From positions 1 to 46,110 of IMG/VR virus record IMGVR_UViG_3300031886_000007: DNA of 46,110 nt. One strand, given 5' to 3'. The stretch is from a virus. Made by a program: the position numbers and the translations under genes. The notes beneath the pieces were generated by a model. That model did no database searches and was not told the origin of the DNA. It saw only the letters and a list, made by a program, of their open reading frames with translations. Every line of letters starts with the position of its first letter. The stretch's first letter is position 1. Of this stretch, positions 4,559 to 42,652 are shown in pieces.

Positions 4559-5478
4559 AGATTTTATATGTAAATGACTGGTCGGTAGGATCAGAGTTTT
4601 CAGCATCAAACACTGGAAATAGTTATATGTGTGATATGATATTTCATGGTGCTAGGAGTTTATTCGGTACAGATTGTATAGATAGTACTAGGGCCTGGTA
4701 TATGTATGACGATTCATACGTTGATACAGCTAGACATAAATTATATGGACTTGGTTTTAATTATGCGGCTAAACTTCCTGTTGTAAAAATAGATAGGTCT
4801 AGTTTACGTGAGAAAATATTAGACAGATATTTTGATTTAATTATTTACGGTATGGGTAGACAACGATTGAAACCATATTGGGATGATGTAATAAAGGTTT
4901 ATAAGCGGGAACAGATTGTATTGATTGATGGAAATGATAGAGGTAATATCTTACTCAATGATTCGTTAGTAGAAAAAGCTTTATACTTTAAACGAGAGTT
5001 TGTAACTCCATCTAAGTGGCCTAAGGGAGTATTACCTCTTAGTTATTCTATACCAAAATCTCAAGTAGTAACTACACCTGTGCAGAAACTTGGTAAGGAT
5101 CAGTTCGTATCACCGCCAAATCATGGAGAATATGGTTTTAGAAATGAAGAAGAGTACAATAAAAATTATCAGAAATCTATGTTTGCGCTTACAAGACAAA
5201 AGCTCGGATGGGATTGTCTTAGACACTATGAAATTGTTGCTAATGGATGCATACCGATTTTTTACAAGTATTCGTCAATTCCTGATTCAATCATGACAAC
5301 ATGGGATAGATCACTCTTTCGCGATGCATACAAATTAATGTGGGATACAAAGAGTCAAAATACCAGGGTATTAACAAGGTATTATAGAGATTTAGCTGCC
5401 GCATTTACAGATCAAATGTTAAAAAGACAAACAACAGAGAAGGCAGTTGAATACATTCTGAATCACGTTAATATTTAA
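4555..5478 (+). CDS. Putative glycosyltransferase (exostosin/CgeB-like C-terminus)
   Basis: 307 aa with a TTG start overlapping the previous stop (TTGA); no good ribosome site is visible, so coupling is likely. Two Rossmann-like halves are suggested: an N-terminal KILYVNDWSVGSEF strand, DLIIYGMGRQR and QIVLIDGNDRG, and a C-terminal half with FALTRQKLGWDCLRHYEI and ANGCIPIFY. The latter pattern (Gly-Trp/Phe-x-x-x-R-x-x-E ... Gly-C-I-P) is the donor-sugar-binding region of exostosin- and CgeB-like GT-B enzymes. It sits between a methyltransferase and the Popeye-like gene. Assignment is moderate; donor and acceptor are unknown. Confidence 0.65.
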   Translation: MKILYVNDWSVGSEFSASNTGNSYMCDMIFHGARSLFGTDCIDSTRAWYMYDDSYVDTARHKLYGLGFNYAAKLPVVKIDRSSLREKILDRYFDLIIYGMGRQRLKPYWDDVIKVYKREQIVLIDGNDRGNILLNDSLVEKALYFKREFVTPSKWPKGVLPLSYSIPKSQVVTTPVQKLGKDQFVSPPNHGEYGFRNEEEYNKNYQKSMFALTRQKLGWDCLRHYEIVANGCIPIFYKYSSIPDSIMTTWDRSLFRDAYKLMWDTKSQNTRVLTRYYRDLAAAFTDQMLKRQTTEKAVEYILNHVNI

Positions 5479-12758: not shown

Positions 12759-13241
12759 ATGAGTTTAGTTTTAAAACATCCCACCTTTCCCGGGATTTCA
12801 AGAGATAACTTTCTAACACCATTCGATCGTCTGTTTGATACGATGTTCGAATCTAACTTTCCAGAAATTGTTGATACTGTCGGCGTAAGACCGTTCGAAG
12901 GTACAGCATATCCAAAGGTTAATGTATATGAACACGAGGATAAAGTTGGTGTAGTTGCGGAAATACCTGGTATTTCTAAAGAAGATCTTGCAGTTGATGT
13001 AGAAGATAATGTGCTAACAATAAAGGGTTCAAAACATGGAGCTATAGGACGAGCGATGGAAGAAAATGCTACAGTACTTCGTAGAGAGTTAAAGCATTCA
13101 TCCTTTGAACGTAGGTTTACGTTAGGAGAATCTTTAGACGGTGATAATATAAAAGCACGGTTTAAAGATGGTATTTTGTCTATTGATATTCCTAAGACGG
13201 AAATCAAAGAGCCAAAAAAATCCTTTGTTAAAATCTCATAG
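12759..13241 (+). CDS. Hsp20/alpha-crystallin small heat-shock protein
   Basis: 160 aa, typical length for the family. The N-terminal arm contains TPFDRLFDTMF. The alpha-crystallin domain runs from about residue 50 to 150: YPKVNVYEHEDKVGVVAEIP, then SKEDLAVDVEDNVLTIKG, the FERRFTLGESLDGDNIKA block and the FKDGILSIDIPK signature (the A-x-x-x-n-G-v-L motif, here KARFKDGILSI). It ends in a short tail (KSFVKIS). It holds unfolding proteins in the cytoplasm without ATP. Hsp20 genes are known in T4-like marine phages, where a role in structural-protein folding has been proposed. AAAGGAG precedes the ATG. It is monocistronic: own control region upstream and a terminator downstream. Confidence 0.95.
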   Translation: MSLVLKHPTFPGISRDNFLTPFDRLFDTMFESNFPEIVDTVGVRPFEGTAYPKVNVYEHEDKVGVVAEIPGISKEDLAVDVEDNVLTIKGSKHGAIGRAMEENATVLRRELKHSSFERRFTLGESLDGDNIKARFKDGILSIDIPKTEIKEPKKSFVKIS

Positions 13242-13308: not shown

Positions 13309-13379
13309 GCGAGTATCGTATAGCGGTAATACCCCAGCCTTCCAAGCTGGTGACGTCAGTTCGATTCTGTCTACTCGCT
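13309..13379 (+). tRNA. tRNA-Gly (anticodon UCC)
   Basis: 71 nt. The acceptor stem GCGAGTA/TACTCGC is perfectly paired. The D stem is GTAT/ATAC around AGCGGTA, and the anticodon stem CCAGC/GCTGG encloses CTTCCAA with anticodon TCC at 13341-13343. The T arm GTCAG-TTCGATT-CTGTC has one U-U mismatch. U at the discriminator position and C35-C36 are the glycine identity elements in bacteria. CCA is not encoded and must be added. It reads GGA/GGG; GGA is visibly the favoured glycine codon in this phage. Confidence 0.93.
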
Positions 13380-13395
13380 CAACGGGATATTCCAA

Positions 13396-15574: not shown

Positions 15575-15729
15575 TGCCTAAGAAGAAGACTAAAGGTCAA
15601 TTCTCAAATTACAAGAAATGGAAATCCGATGAAGGTTACACATTTTTTGCGAGAGACAAGGATGATGCAAAATTGTATCTTAAAAAGATGGATCATCTTG
15701 GTAGTGGTTTCGCAGAGGTGAAGTCTTGA
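15574..15729 (+). CDS. Small basic protein, 51 aa
   Basis: ATG overlaps the upstream stop (TAATG), and the frame stays open for 51 codons to a TGA that overlaps the TTG start of the deformylase gene. Sequence starts [20 protein letters not shown], then [19 protein letters not shown]. Lys-rich and probably soluble. Coupling on both sides supports a genuine gene. Function unknown. Confidence 0.62.
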
Positions 15730-16430
15730 GACCAATTCCAAATTGTTTTATTGAAGATAATCATCTCATCAATAAAAAACTAAAAGAGGTTACAGTTGAA
15801 GAAGGATTAGAAATTGCTAAAGAACTTCTTGAAATTATGGCCACGAGAAAAGACGCTATTGGTTTAGCGGCTAATCAGGTTGGTATTGATGCTCGTGTGG
15901 CCGTTGTTAATGTTAGAGAACCTCTTATCTTAATTAATCCAGAAATTACTGAAGAGTTTGATGAAATAACATTTTATGAAGGATGCTTATCGTTTCCAAA
16001 AAAGGGCGTCTATACTAAACGTTATAGAAATGTTGTTGTTAAGACTGCTCAAGAAGAAAGTGGATGGTACTTTAGTGGTAATGAACAGAGTCATGATGGA
16101 AAGGGAAGTTGGGAAAAATCTAAGGTTGATAAAGATAATGAGTTGAGATTATTAGAAGCAGTGGCAGTTCAACACGAAATAGATCATTTAAACGGAATAA
16201 CTATTCATGACAATGCAACACCATTACAACCAATAATTGCAGAAAAGAAACCTGGTCGTAATGAAAAGTGTCCGTGTGGTAGTGGTAAGAAATATAAAAA
16301 GTGTTGTCTCAATAAACCAAAAGCTACAGATCATCAAGATAGACACTGGCAAGATATTGAATATGAAGGAGCCAGAAATGCTCCATTAGAAGAAGGCGGA
16401 TGGGCTACAAGTAATACTCAAAATGAGTAA
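15726..16430 (+). CDS. def: Peptide deformylase with C-terminal SEC-C zinc motif
   Basis: 234 aa, TTG start with AGAGGTG upstream. Removes the formyl group from the N-terminal Met of new proteins. All three motifs are present: IGLAANQVG at about residue 44, EGCLSFP at about 85 (metal Cys) and QHEIDHLNG at about 149 (two metal His and catalytic Glu). Between motifs 2 and 3 there are about 65 residues instead of about 44: an insertion rich in Gly, Ser and charged residues ([17 protein letters not shown]). After the core, [19 protein letters not shown] is a SEC-C motif, as in SecA, which binds zinc and in SecA contacts the ribosome/SecB. Phage deformylases are known; the fused SEC-C may place the enzyme at the ribosome. 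Odd but intact. Confidence 0.93.
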
Positions 16431-21349: not shown

Positions 21350-21759
21350 GGGCCCGCTGGGTATCGACGGGTGTTTTTTGACAATTGAGTGCAGCAGAGT
21401 TTGAACAAGACTCGAGACAAAAGGTTCACTAACCAAATTGGCGAATTTTCGCTAGACGGGTTGGTAATAGATTGGCATTTAGCCGATACTGATTCAGCAC
21501 CACTTGTTGGAGCTGAGCTGGCTTACCAACCGACTTACGCTTACGCTTAGGTCCTTGGGTTGTCTGACACCCGAGTATAAAATAAGTTAGACAAACAACT
21601 CTATGTGTGAGAGTATAAACACACCAGTTAATGGATATGTTCTGCAAAAGAAATCCACATGGTTGTTTGCTAGTTGCTACCAATGGAAACTAGCTAAGCT
21701 GTAACGACTCATTGTTAATAGCAGGCCGGACGGGAGTTCGAATCTCCCCGGGTCCACAA
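21350..21759 (+). ncRNA. ssrA: tmRNA (ssrA), one-piece, four pseudoknots
   Basis: tmRNA rescues stalled ribosomes. The acceptor stem GGGCCCG (21350-21356) pairs with CGGGTCC (21749-21755), followed by discriminator A; ACA is encoded, not CCA. The conserved ATCGACGGG follows the 5' stem. The T arm is GGGAG-TTCGAAT-CTCCC (21732-21748). Helix P2: 21380-21395 with 21698-21716. Four H-type pseudoknots can be drawn: pk1 21396-21428, pk2 21554-21592, pk3 21598-21624, pk4 21632-21670. The tag reading frame is unclear. One frame ends AYQPTYAYA-stop at 21548-21550 with several possible Ala/Gly resume codons from 21440 on. The other, from GCG at 21441, the usual distance after pk1, gives only ANFR-stop. 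It lies between a small gene and promoter copy D. Confidence 0.95.
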
Positions 21760-21784: not shown

Positions 21785-21832
21785 GTGAAAAAAAGCATGT
21801 ACATGTATAGTATTTTATGTGTATATTCTAAC
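21785..21832 (+). promoter_or_regulatory. Recurrent phage promoter, copy D
   Basis: AAAAGTGAAAAAAAGCA precedes TGTACA (21798-21803), with an 18-nt spacer and TATATTC (21822-21828). The CCGGTTTTT element of copies A-C is replaced by ATAGTATTTTA, so only the boxes and the upstream A-rich tract are conserved. It drives the operon from 21854 (wall enzyme, HD hydrolase, sigma factor). Confidence 0.72.
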
Positions 21833-21853: not shown

Positions 21854-22378
21854 GTGAATATGTTAAACAAGTACATTCTATCAATAATAGCCGTTACAAT
21901 GATAAATGGATACATTAGTGTTCAGTTCATGAAGAGTAATAGAGAAACATACAAGGGTTATTACGATGAATTGATGTATGAGAATCAACAATTAGGACGG
22001 GAACTGGATGAATTTTATGCTTATGGTATAAAGGTTGATGTAACAATGTATCAACCAACGCGATATCAAACAGATAGTACACCGAATATTACAGCTGATG
22101 GAACTAAAATTCGTATTAATAGTGCATCAGATTATAAGTTCGTTGCTCTTTCTAGAAATCTATTGAAACGGTGGGGTGGACCATTTGATTACGGTGATTT
22201 TATTTTAATTAAGGGTACTGGTAGTAAAGATGGAGTATATCAAGTTAGAGATACCATGAATCCAAAATGGGTTAATGTGGTAGATATTTTAGAATCAAAG
22301 GGTGTTAAACAATACAAGTATGAAAATTGTGATATTTTTAAATTACCCTGGTTAAAAAAAGAAGAGGAAAATGCATGA
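21854..22378 (+). CDS. 3D/RlpA-like peptidoglycan-acting protein with N-terminal anchor, 174 aa
   Basis: GTG start (ATG two codons later) with AGGAG 7 nt upstream. One N-terminal transmembrane or signal helix (residues about 6-24, YILSIIAVTMINGYISVQFM) and a short coil (ELMYENQQLGRELDEF) precede the domain. VTMYQPTRYQTDSTPNITAD, then GTKIR, KFVALSRNLLKRWGG, GDFILIKGTG and YQVRDTMNPKWVNVVDIL fit the double-psi beta-barrel of 3D/RlpA/MltA-type proteins (TADGT and a late D-x-M/T-N..VDI). Such domains cleave or bind peptidoglycan glycan strands. It could act in lysis from the inner membrane. First gene behind promoter copy D and directly downstream of the tmRNA. Confidence 0.72.
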   Translation: MNMLNKYILSIIAVTMINGYISVQFMKSNRETYKGYYDELMYENQQLGRELDEFYAYGIKVDVTMYQPTRYQTDSTPNITADGTKIRINSASDYKFVALSRNLLKRWGGPFDYGDFILIKGTGSKDGVYQVRDTMNPKWVNVVDILESKGVKQYKYENCDIFKLPWLKKEEENA

Positions 22379-23121
22379 AATTAGGTGCTGAACAGATAGT
22401 AGAAAATTGGCGACTACTACATGAAGTTATAGATACAACGTTTAAAGATGAACGTTTAGAAAATATAAAAAAGTTACACAATCATTTTGAAGATAGAATG
22501 CAGATAGCACCTGCTTCTGCTACAAAATGGTTTCACAACGCATTTCCAGGTGGATATACTTCTCACGTTTTAAATGTGATAAAGTGGTCTTTAGAATACT
22601 GGAAATTATTTGAAAAGATGGGAATGCATGTGGATGACTTAGATAAAGAGACGATTGTTTTTTGTGCAATGTTTCATGATCTTGGTAAGATAGGTGATAT
22701 GGATAATGATTATTATATTACACAGCCAGATGATTGGAAAGCAAAAAAATGGGGTCGACCTTATGATCATAATCCAGAATTGCATTGGATGAATATAGCT
22801 GATAGATCGTTTATGATATTAAATCAATTTGGAATAAAGTATTCTCAACAGGAATTTTATGGTATAAAGATGGCAGATGGATTATATGATGAGGCAAATA
22901 AACCGTATTTTTTTGAAGGTCAAGAATGGAAAGCAATTAAGACTAATATTGGTTTCATAATACATTATGGAGATTCTTCTGCAACTCGATGGGAAAAGGA
23001 ACAATACATGTTGTCCGGAGAAAGTGCAGTAGATTTTCCAAAAATTATGAAGGGAATAACCAAAGACGACGAGGTTTTGAAATCTCTCGATGTAGATAAA
23101 TTAGGAGATTTATTCAAATGA
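22375..23121 (+). CDS. HD-domain phosphohydrolase, 248 aa
   Basis: The metal ligands are visible: H64 (TSHVLNVIKW), H101-D102 (MFHDLGKIGD), and a distal Asp in the helix containing IIHYGDSSATRW near residue 199. These are the H...HD...D of the HD superfamily (nucleotide or cyclic-nucleotide phosphohydrolases). Aromatic loops (YDHNPELHWMNIADRSFMIL) shape the site. It overlaps the previous stop (ATGA) and the next start. It may degrade nucleotides or signalling nucleotides; the presence of a cyclic-nucleotide-binding-like protein at 5483 makes the latter worth testing. Confidence 0.8.
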   Translation: MKLGAEQIVENWRLLHEVIDTTFKDERLENIKKLHNHFEDRMQIAPASATKWFHNAFPGGYTSHVLNVIKWSLEYWKLFEKMGMHVDDLDKETIVFCAMFHDLGKIGDMDNDYYITQPDDWKAKKWGRPYDHNPELHWMNIADRSFMILNQFGIKYSQQEFYGIKMADGLYDEANKPYFFEGQEWKAIKTNIGFIIHYGDSSATRWEKEQYMLSGESAVDFPKIMKGITKDDEVLKSLDVDKLGDLFK

Positions 23122-41647: not shown

Positions 41648-42652
41648 ATGAGCATATTCACAGAGTTTAATCAACAAGACGACGTAATACCAGGTCAGGT
41701 CAATACTGTTTCGTCTGGTATGTGGTCAGGTGGGTTAGGAACGTTAACAGCGTTTTACACCTCTTCTGTACAAAGTGGAAGTACCGGTGAACATTATTAT
41801 GACGCGTATAACGGAGTTGTTGGAACAAACGCAACAGCATCAGTACAGTTTTCTGTTACCTACGGAAATTATTACGGGTCTGGTTCATTAAGCGGAAACA
41901 GCAATTATCAAGCTTCTAAAGCAGTTTATAGACAGTTGAGAAATCTGTTATTACCTCAAAACCAAACGGTTTTCAAATGGGGTCCCGCAGAAGCAAGTTC
42001 ATCGTATTCAACCTTTGCAATATCGTTGAACAGATCACGACTTAAAGAGAAGATGGATCCGGGTAACTGGGAAATTCATGTATCTAGTTCAACATCAAAT
42101 GTTATTAAGTTGATCGATGATTCTGGAGCAACGAATGACCCTAACGTTAAATCTACAGTACGAGAATTTAATGTAATATCTGGTTCAATTTCAACAGGTG
42201 TTGCAGTGACAGGATCCTCAACAGTACATTTCGGAAAATTCTATCCAGAAACTGGCATAATAATACTTGACGCCGATGGACTTGGCGGACAAGCTACAAT
42301 AGCTGGATACGGAACAGAATCAAACGCGCAAAATAACAACGCAGGTGACTTTTTCGATCACATCAAGGGCGGAGCATATTTCGCTGCAAGACGTGAAGAA
42401 CAGATTAAGTCAACTCATTACTTTTGTAGGGTAAAACACGGCAAATATAATCATAGTCAGAATCCAACATATTATTCTGGTTCAGATTCAGTATTAGCTG
42501 TTCCTTCCTTTAGAACAGATCCTAAGTCATACATTACGACAGTAGGTTTGTATAACAATAATAATGAATTGTTAGCTGTGGCTAAGTTATCTAAACCAAT
42601 CTTGAAATCTACAAGTAGGGAAGCTCTCATAAAGGTAAGATTAGACTTTTAG
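41648..42652 (+). CDS. Virion structural protein, paralogue 1 of pair, 334 aa
   Basis: TTAGGAG before the ATG. The C-terminal block SYITTVGLYNNNNELLAVAK, then LSKPILKSTSREALIKVRLD, is shared with the next gene (YVTTIGLYNDHGDLLAVAKT). It is a hallmark I associate with structural proteins of T4-like marine phages. Also conserved between the pair: REEQIKSTHYFCRVKHGKYN versus LYEHEYTCLIPEGTFN, followed by N-x-S. The N-terminal part is Ser/Gly/Tyr-rich (FYTSSVQSGSTGEHYYDAYN). No enzymatic motif. Probably a capsid- or tail-surface protein. Confidence 0.75.
   Translation: MSIFTEFNQQDDVIPGQVNTVSSGMWSGGLGTLTAFYTSSVQSGSTGEHYYDAYNGVVGTNATASVQFSVTYGNYYGSGSLSGNSNYQASKAVYRQLRNLLLPQNQTVFKWGPAEASSSYSTFAISLNRSRLKEKMDPGNWEIHVSSSTSNVIKLIDDSGATNDPNVKSTVREFNVISGSISTGVAVTGSSTVHFGKFYPETGIIILDADGLGGQATIAGYGTESNAQNNNAGDFFDHIKGGAYFAARREEQIKSTHYFCRVKHGKYNHSQNPTYYSGSDSVLAVPSFRTDPKSYITTVGLYNNNNELLAVAKLSKPILKSTSREALIKVRLDF

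Follow-up and report, generated by a model that had tools for sequence, protein, structure and literature searches.

A phage-encoded one-piece tmRNA that probably adds a long tag with a conserved peptide core

A viral DNA stretch of 46,110 nucleotides (nt) from IMG/VR record IMGVR_UViG_3300031886_000007 (positions 1 to 46,110, hereafter the window) carries a transfer-messenger RNA (tmRNA) gene on its plus strand, and the question raised by this locus is which tag peptide it encodes. An initial inspection of the letters (the sequence-only reading) left two frames in competition: a short one beginning with GCG at 21441 and a long one that stays open to a UAG at 21548. Comparison with relatives favors the long frame, and the gene is read here, with considerable confidence, as a working phage-encoded one-piece tmRNA that would add a long tag of 36 residues to unfinished proteins.

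The region 21350-21759 is confirmed as a complete one-piece tmRNA gene. The Rfam covariance model RF00023 matches it over its entire length on the plus strand (62.6 bits, E 3e-22; gathering score 47 bits) and ARAGORN calls a tmRNA at 21350-21757, so that the full-length phage tmRNA described in the sequence-only reading stands. A two-piece or permuted tmRNA is ruled out by the standard order of the parts together with the full RF00023 match, and a pseudogene by the selection that acts on both structure and frame. The parts outside the tag are as follows.

21350-21356 / 21749-21755, plus strand: acceptor stem P1, fully paired in the window and containing G3.U
21381..21395, plus strand: 5' strand of P2 (partner 21698-21715)
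21397-21400/21410-21413 and 21402-21406/21424-21428, plus strand: pseudoknot 1 (PK1), spanning 21397..21428
21429..21439, plus strand: 11-nt linker from PK1 to the resume codon, with A 21436 at -4, the equivalent of Escherichia coli A86
21554-21560/21569-21575 and 21561-21568/21586-21593, plus strand: pseudoknot 2 (PK2), spanning 21554..21593
21598-21602/21610-21614 and 21605-21609/21620-21624, plus strand: pseudoknot 3 (PK3), spanning 21598..21624, its pairing assigned by eye from the window alone
21661-21663/21679-21681 and 21669-21675/21688-21694, plus strand: pseudoknot 4 (PK4), spanning 21661..21694
21732..21748, plus strand: T arm
21756, plus strand: discriminator A, followed by CAA (CCA is not encoded)

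In the window, the acceptor stem, P2, the T arm, PK1, PK2, and PK4 pair as had been proposed from the single sequence, and in an alignment of 52 relatives most of them show compensatory changes. P1 shows such changes and retains the G3.U pair of alanine identity in 51/52 sequences; both-side changes occur in seven pairs of the two P2 helices, six pairs of PK1, and three of the five pairs of the T arm, all cells of which are paired (100%). The PK2 helices are paired in 100% and 99.3% of cells, with compensatory changes. PK4, the weakest of these three pseudoknots, is paired in 72% and 63% of cells in a poorly aligned region, and the PK3 region is too variable to be aligned across relatives, its pairing being known by eye alone. 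Taken together, the textbook tmRNA helices are paired in 88.7% of cells with both-side changes in 34 of 69 pairs, and their covariation score is 0.262, as against 0.123 for shuffled partners and less than 0.09 for slid ones.

The first relatives were recovered by searching viral contigs with the HD-domain protein encoded at 22375-23121, the second gene downstream of the tmRNA. Two non-identical relatives (L002 and L003) have a tmRNA at the same place and preserve the long frame, their indels leaving it intact; their long tags are GDESLHGLDIDWHLAEYDYSVDLPIGNAQPTYAYAA and GDNSLEGLDIDWHLAEYDVPSLPIGNDQPTYAYAA, respectively. A search with the tag alignment yielded 118 confirmed stretches in viral contigs, and these, together with a second search, comprise at least 63 distinct full-length tmRNAs and 56 distinct tag sequences. 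A DNA pattern for the tag end recovered mostly unrelated sequence beyond the window's own phage. To avoid circularity, the family was also sampled blind to the tag, with a pattern drawn from the 3' portion of the RNA (80 of 96 reported stretches analysed): the tag region is complete in 69 of the 80 loci, of which 68 (66 by script, plus L268 and L289 by hand) encode the long tag core described below. The tag region of the window contains the following elements.

21440..21547, plus strand: tag frame of 36 codons, with resume codon GGC at 21440 and peptide GEFSLDGLVIDWHLADTDSAPLVGAELAYQPTYAYA
21548..21550, plus strand: tag stop codon UAG (mostly UAA in relatives)
GGCGA 21440-21444 / UCGCU 21449-21453, plus strand: hairpin starting at the resume codon (window fold -7.1 kcal/mol, z -3.7)
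21459-21467 / 21523-21531, plus strand: 9-bp stem within the tag frame, 100% complementary in the window
21532..21553, plus strand: H5-like hairpin around the stop and the tag codons just before it (-7.7 kcal/mol, z -2.9)

Translation very probably resumes at GGC 21440 and runs to the UAG at 21548, judging from the way in which this region varies. Relatives preserving neither frame would have counted against the sequence-only reading; this is not what is seen, the frame from GGC (frame 0) being open in 56/56 distinct tag sequences, over lengths of 34-49 codons. The spacing between the resume codon and PK2, used for the indel test as an anchor lying outside the tag frame, is divisible by three in 84/84 sequences, which represent nine different lengths. 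In the core codons, the ratio of non-synonymous to synonymous changes per site (pN/pS) is 0.235 in frame 0 versus 0.90 and 0.81 in the other two frames; frame 0 is the only one in which synonymous changes per site exceed non-synonymous ones more than fourfold. Column entropies by codon position (0.22, 0.15, and 0.71) are dominated by third positions. The sequences share descent, so these counts cannot be treated as independent; several independent changes behind them are nevertheless evident from the nine lengths and from the compensated variants of the hairpin described below. The linker from PK1 to the resume codon is 11 nt long, the same spacing as in E. coli. The base at -4 of the resume codon is A in 52/52 aligned sequences and in 77/80 of the wider set, and in E. 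coli tmRNA it is chiefly the equivalent base, A86, that sets the frame of resumption (PMC2481249). A de novo start codon was rejected: the triplet at -1 is AAT, ATT, TAT, or TTT, i.e., a start is not conserved.

The competing frame deserves consideration because GCG 21441 lies near the usual distance past PK1 and has in-frame stops behind it; a ribosome resuming there would stop after ANFR and be freed without a degradation mark. These letters were read correctly, but they do not behave as a tag. The stop after four codons is present in just 38/56 sequences and appears as a by-product of CUA-GA codons; its frame (+1) is the one with a pN/pS of 0.90 and has no coding signature, and resumption at GCG would place the conserved A at -5, not -4. 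The suggested release of ribosomes without marking of proteins is likewise unsupported, and a short tag of this kind is scarcely credible. The tandem UAA-UAG that was thought to close it within the 9-bp stem occupies 21465-21470: the stem exists, but the UAG lies outside it, and across the family the same letters are the V-I-D codons of the long frame. Thus, of the two candidate frames comparison selects the long one, which begins one base before GCG. ARAGORN also uses this frame but places its start at GAU 21485, preceded by letters similar to the usual resume consensus, for a 21-amino-acid (aa) tag, DTDSAPLVGAELAYQPTYAYA. This start is 15 codons late and omits the best-conserved codons, which are under peptide-level selection; the starts called by the program are inconsistent among close relatives (GNAQPTYAYAA in L002, EYDYSPMV... 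in L145), and the short tag of L284 (see below) begins at GGC directly past PK1. The later start is therefore very unlikely.

It might also be argued that the insert serves only as structured RNA and that the long frame is open incidentally, given that hairpins lie within it and that its GGG-UUG and UCG codons are almost invariant. Such an origin is most improbable: the synonymous excess is confined to frame 0, every length change is a multiple of three, and the variable linker of the tag likewise keeps the frame. An intron or a purely structural insert is ruled out since the region codes for the tag; what had been taken for a structured insert absent from textbook tmRNAs is the tag reading frame itself. 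RNA structure is nonetheless present within the tag frame. The hairpin at the resume codon has 5/5 pairs in 76/80 sequences, including the compensated variants GGUGA/UCACU and GACGA/UCGUU, and it bears on how ribosomes locate the first tag codon. The 9-bp stem is paired in 90% of cells in relatives and is weak as a conserved structure, since both-side changes occur in only 2/9 pairs.

In the long tag itself, a core that hardly varies (SLxGLxIDWHLA) is followed by a variable linker and the terminal sequence QP[T/S]YAYA(A), with few exceptions at the end; over 100 viral contigs have this arrangement. Tags in the family are usually 34-43 aa long (36 aa in the window), and nearly all those of the wider set have a terminal Ala; in 22/56, including that of the window, the tag ends at YAYA or its equivalent and lacks the second terminal Ala. 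The sequence-only reading was right to place the novelty in the tag; what stands out most there is the conserved core upstream, invisible in a single sequence. Judging from its codon changes, the core is conserved as a peptide, RNA pairing explaining part of the conservation. The Ala/Tyr-rich C terminus appears degron-like, and our best guess is that the core acts as a second recognition element, giving a two-part degradation signal. An AlphaFold model of the tag is of low confidence (mean pLDDT, the predicted local distance difference test, 61), and a PDB profile search gave chance matches alone.

The only core-less case in the tag-blind set is L284 (4710-5052), a 343-nt tmRNA scoring 75 bits. 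Its tag, GTYSNVAYA (9 aa), is read from GGC immediately past PK1, and the gene lies near the same downstream gene and a peptide deformylase gene as in the window's group. A follow-up pattern search found no further copies of the GTYSNVAYA short tag. As the same locus has only this short tag in L284, the extra residues of the long tag are best seen as an added module, and L284 as a tag swap that has arisen in nature. Some members depart from the common layout in other ways. CAA stands in place of the tag stop in L139 (tag from 4998) and in L142, and the frame there extends to 49 residues ending in SNTRT, not YAYA; the near-identical L140 retains the stop. L127 and L128 (tag near 4992) are divergent members with tag ...NLAGLDIDWHLSDYDMPIVAPVTQYQPIYAYAA, in which the resume-codon hairpin is not matched.

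Outside this family, the core pattern GL[DV]IDWHL has one confirmed match over 84,980 bacterial and archaeal genomes, on contig L145 of the metagenome-assembled genome 'bacterium TMED198'. The contig has three tRNAs and, at its end, a partial homologue of the HD gene of the window, and looks like a phage contig. The same TMED198 bin contains a separate tmRNA of the ordinary kind, whose tag is ADYGYAAAA; contigs can be binned wrongly, and the hint to a host is weak for that reason. Among cultured phages, BLAST with the tmRNA matched the T-arm/acceptor end alone, and tblastn with two tags found no tag-like sequence and no IDWHLA core. The long tag is apparently a conserved, phage-specific feature, as far as these comparisons indicate.

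The gp25- and gp6-like baseplate wedge genes in the window identify its phage as a T4-like marine myovirus, of which the contig is a fragment. In L004, L005, and L008 the flanking genes are as in the window and small open reading frames replace the tmRNA, which was not found at that locus even at E up to 5; since the flanks are kept without it, the tmRNA gene is accessory. Directly past the tmRNA, at 21785-21830, lies an A-rich element, AAAAAGCATGTACAT, also conserved upstream of the next gene in L004, L005, and L008, and possibly a phage promoter. Elsewhere the window encodes a peptide deformylase with a fused C-terminal SEC-C motif (15726-16430; a homologue with the same motif occurs in L284) and an Hsp20-type small heat-shock protein (12759-13241) with a tRNA-Gly gene closely downstream (13309-13380). 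The tRNA-Val called by ARAGORN at 41715-41788, within a long open reading frame and without Rfam confirmation, is probably a false call.

In comparison with the E. coli tmRNA (RF00023, tag ANDENYALAA), the phage RNA has the same structural parts, an alanine-type acceptor stem, A at -4, the stop within an H5-like hairpin, and an Ala-rich hydrophobic tag end; it differs from standard ssrA in its 36-aa tag (usually 10), its conserved peptide core, and the resume codon within a hairpin. Bacterial tags of ~27-35 residues exist, so the length alone is not unprecedented. The tags of Mycoplasma and Mesoplasma, which are cellular, are ~27 aa long and end in YAFA, close to the phage YAYA, a likeness limited to the tag end; to our knowledge, they do not contain the IDWHLA core. 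Mycoplasma/Mesoplasma ssrA tags are read by Lon (PMC8138137). In the curated tmRNA database (97,179 sequences, with 79 bacteriophage entries from RefSeq viruses) the commonest tag length is 10 aa (PMC11915505). Phages bearing ssrA have been listed (PMC4131195), and the cultured examples here include mycobacteriophages, Bacillus phage G, and Streptomyces phages (some by tmRNA annotation). Their tmRNAs are also phage-encoded but resemble that of the window only at the T-arm/acceptor end, with no IDWHLA core found, and two from Streptomyces phages have tags of 11 and 13 aa, compared with 36 aa in the window. The tmRNAs of marine phages have been discussed as two-piece forms for the most part (PMC9004378); those of Melnitz and the pelagimyophages, likewise marine myophages, are permuted and two-piece, whereas that of the window is one-piece. 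A permuted tmRNA (RF04321, 95.8 bits), unannotated in the record, was noticed in the cultured podovirus Achromobacter phage JWDelta (L322:670-1054). Three short tag strings did not occur in the open-access literature, in which a long tag combined with a core conserved throughout a group of phages was not found described.

These comparisons support the gene, the structure of the RNA, the choice of frame, and selection acting on the tag peptide. Given the G3.U pair, the T arm, PK1, the resume element, and established tmRNA biology, the RNA is expected to be charged with alanine, to bind host SmpB, and to tag the chains of stalled ribosomes. SmpB, EF-Tu, and alanyl-tRNA synthetase would all come from the host; on reaching the end of a broken mRNA, a stalled ribosome would take the Ala-tmRNA, change template, resume at GGC 21440, read 36 codons to the UAG at 21548, and release the unfinished protein with Ala and GEFSLDGLVIDWHLADTDSAPLVGAELAYQPTYAYA appended. 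A host AAA+ protease, ClpXP- or Lon-like, might then recognize the YAYA(A) end as a degradation signal, and the core SLxGLxIDWHLA might be a second recognition element for an adaptor, a protease, or a phage partner. SmpB was not found in 20 larger records, nearly all tag-bearing, which are fragments; with none found in the phage, that of the host is probably used. The same absence, together with the inhibition of host tmRNA by molecules consisting of the tRNA-like domain (TLD) only (PMC4131195), could suggest a decoy that titrates host SmpB or ribosomes, its tag never being translated, as with the TLD-only molecule of phage DS6A. There would then be no reason to keep a complete PK1-tag-PK4 domain and a selected tag, and a decoy is hardly to be believed.

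Several observations weigh against a working tmRNA with a long tag and a two-part signal. The phage records are fragmentary, so the absence of SmpB is not proven; many tags, including the window's, finish in YAYA instead of YAYAA; RNA pairing accounts for part of the core conservation (GGG-UUG, UCG); and the resume codon GGC 21440 sits inside a hairpin, a helix around the E. coli resume codon having been proposed as the cause of an inactive mutant (PMC2481249). As for partners, SspB was not found in 14 phage records, and ClpP-like protease genes are present in two of them (L328:1498-2127, minus strand, and L329). In the L328 protein the Ser, His, and Asp of the ClpP triad are apparently in place, by eye, and the protease is a possible partner of the tag. 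We tentatively propose, at somewhat less than even chances, that the core is a phage-specific second signal and not a spacer, sending rescued chains to a phage-chosen partner (candidates are an adaptor, a host protease, or phage ClpP) or acting as an effector peptide, with the resume codon in a conserved hairpin.

With this family, viral metagenomes contribute at least 63 further distinct full-length tmRNAs, which share a long tag whose peptide core is under selection. Because ARAGORN mis-calls these tags, long tags are probably misannotated elsewhere. The findings suggest that a phage can swap the host's 'degrade me' label for its own two-part label during infection; if the proposed role of the core is true, the phage would set its own fate for proteins from stalled ribosomes, apart from the host tag.
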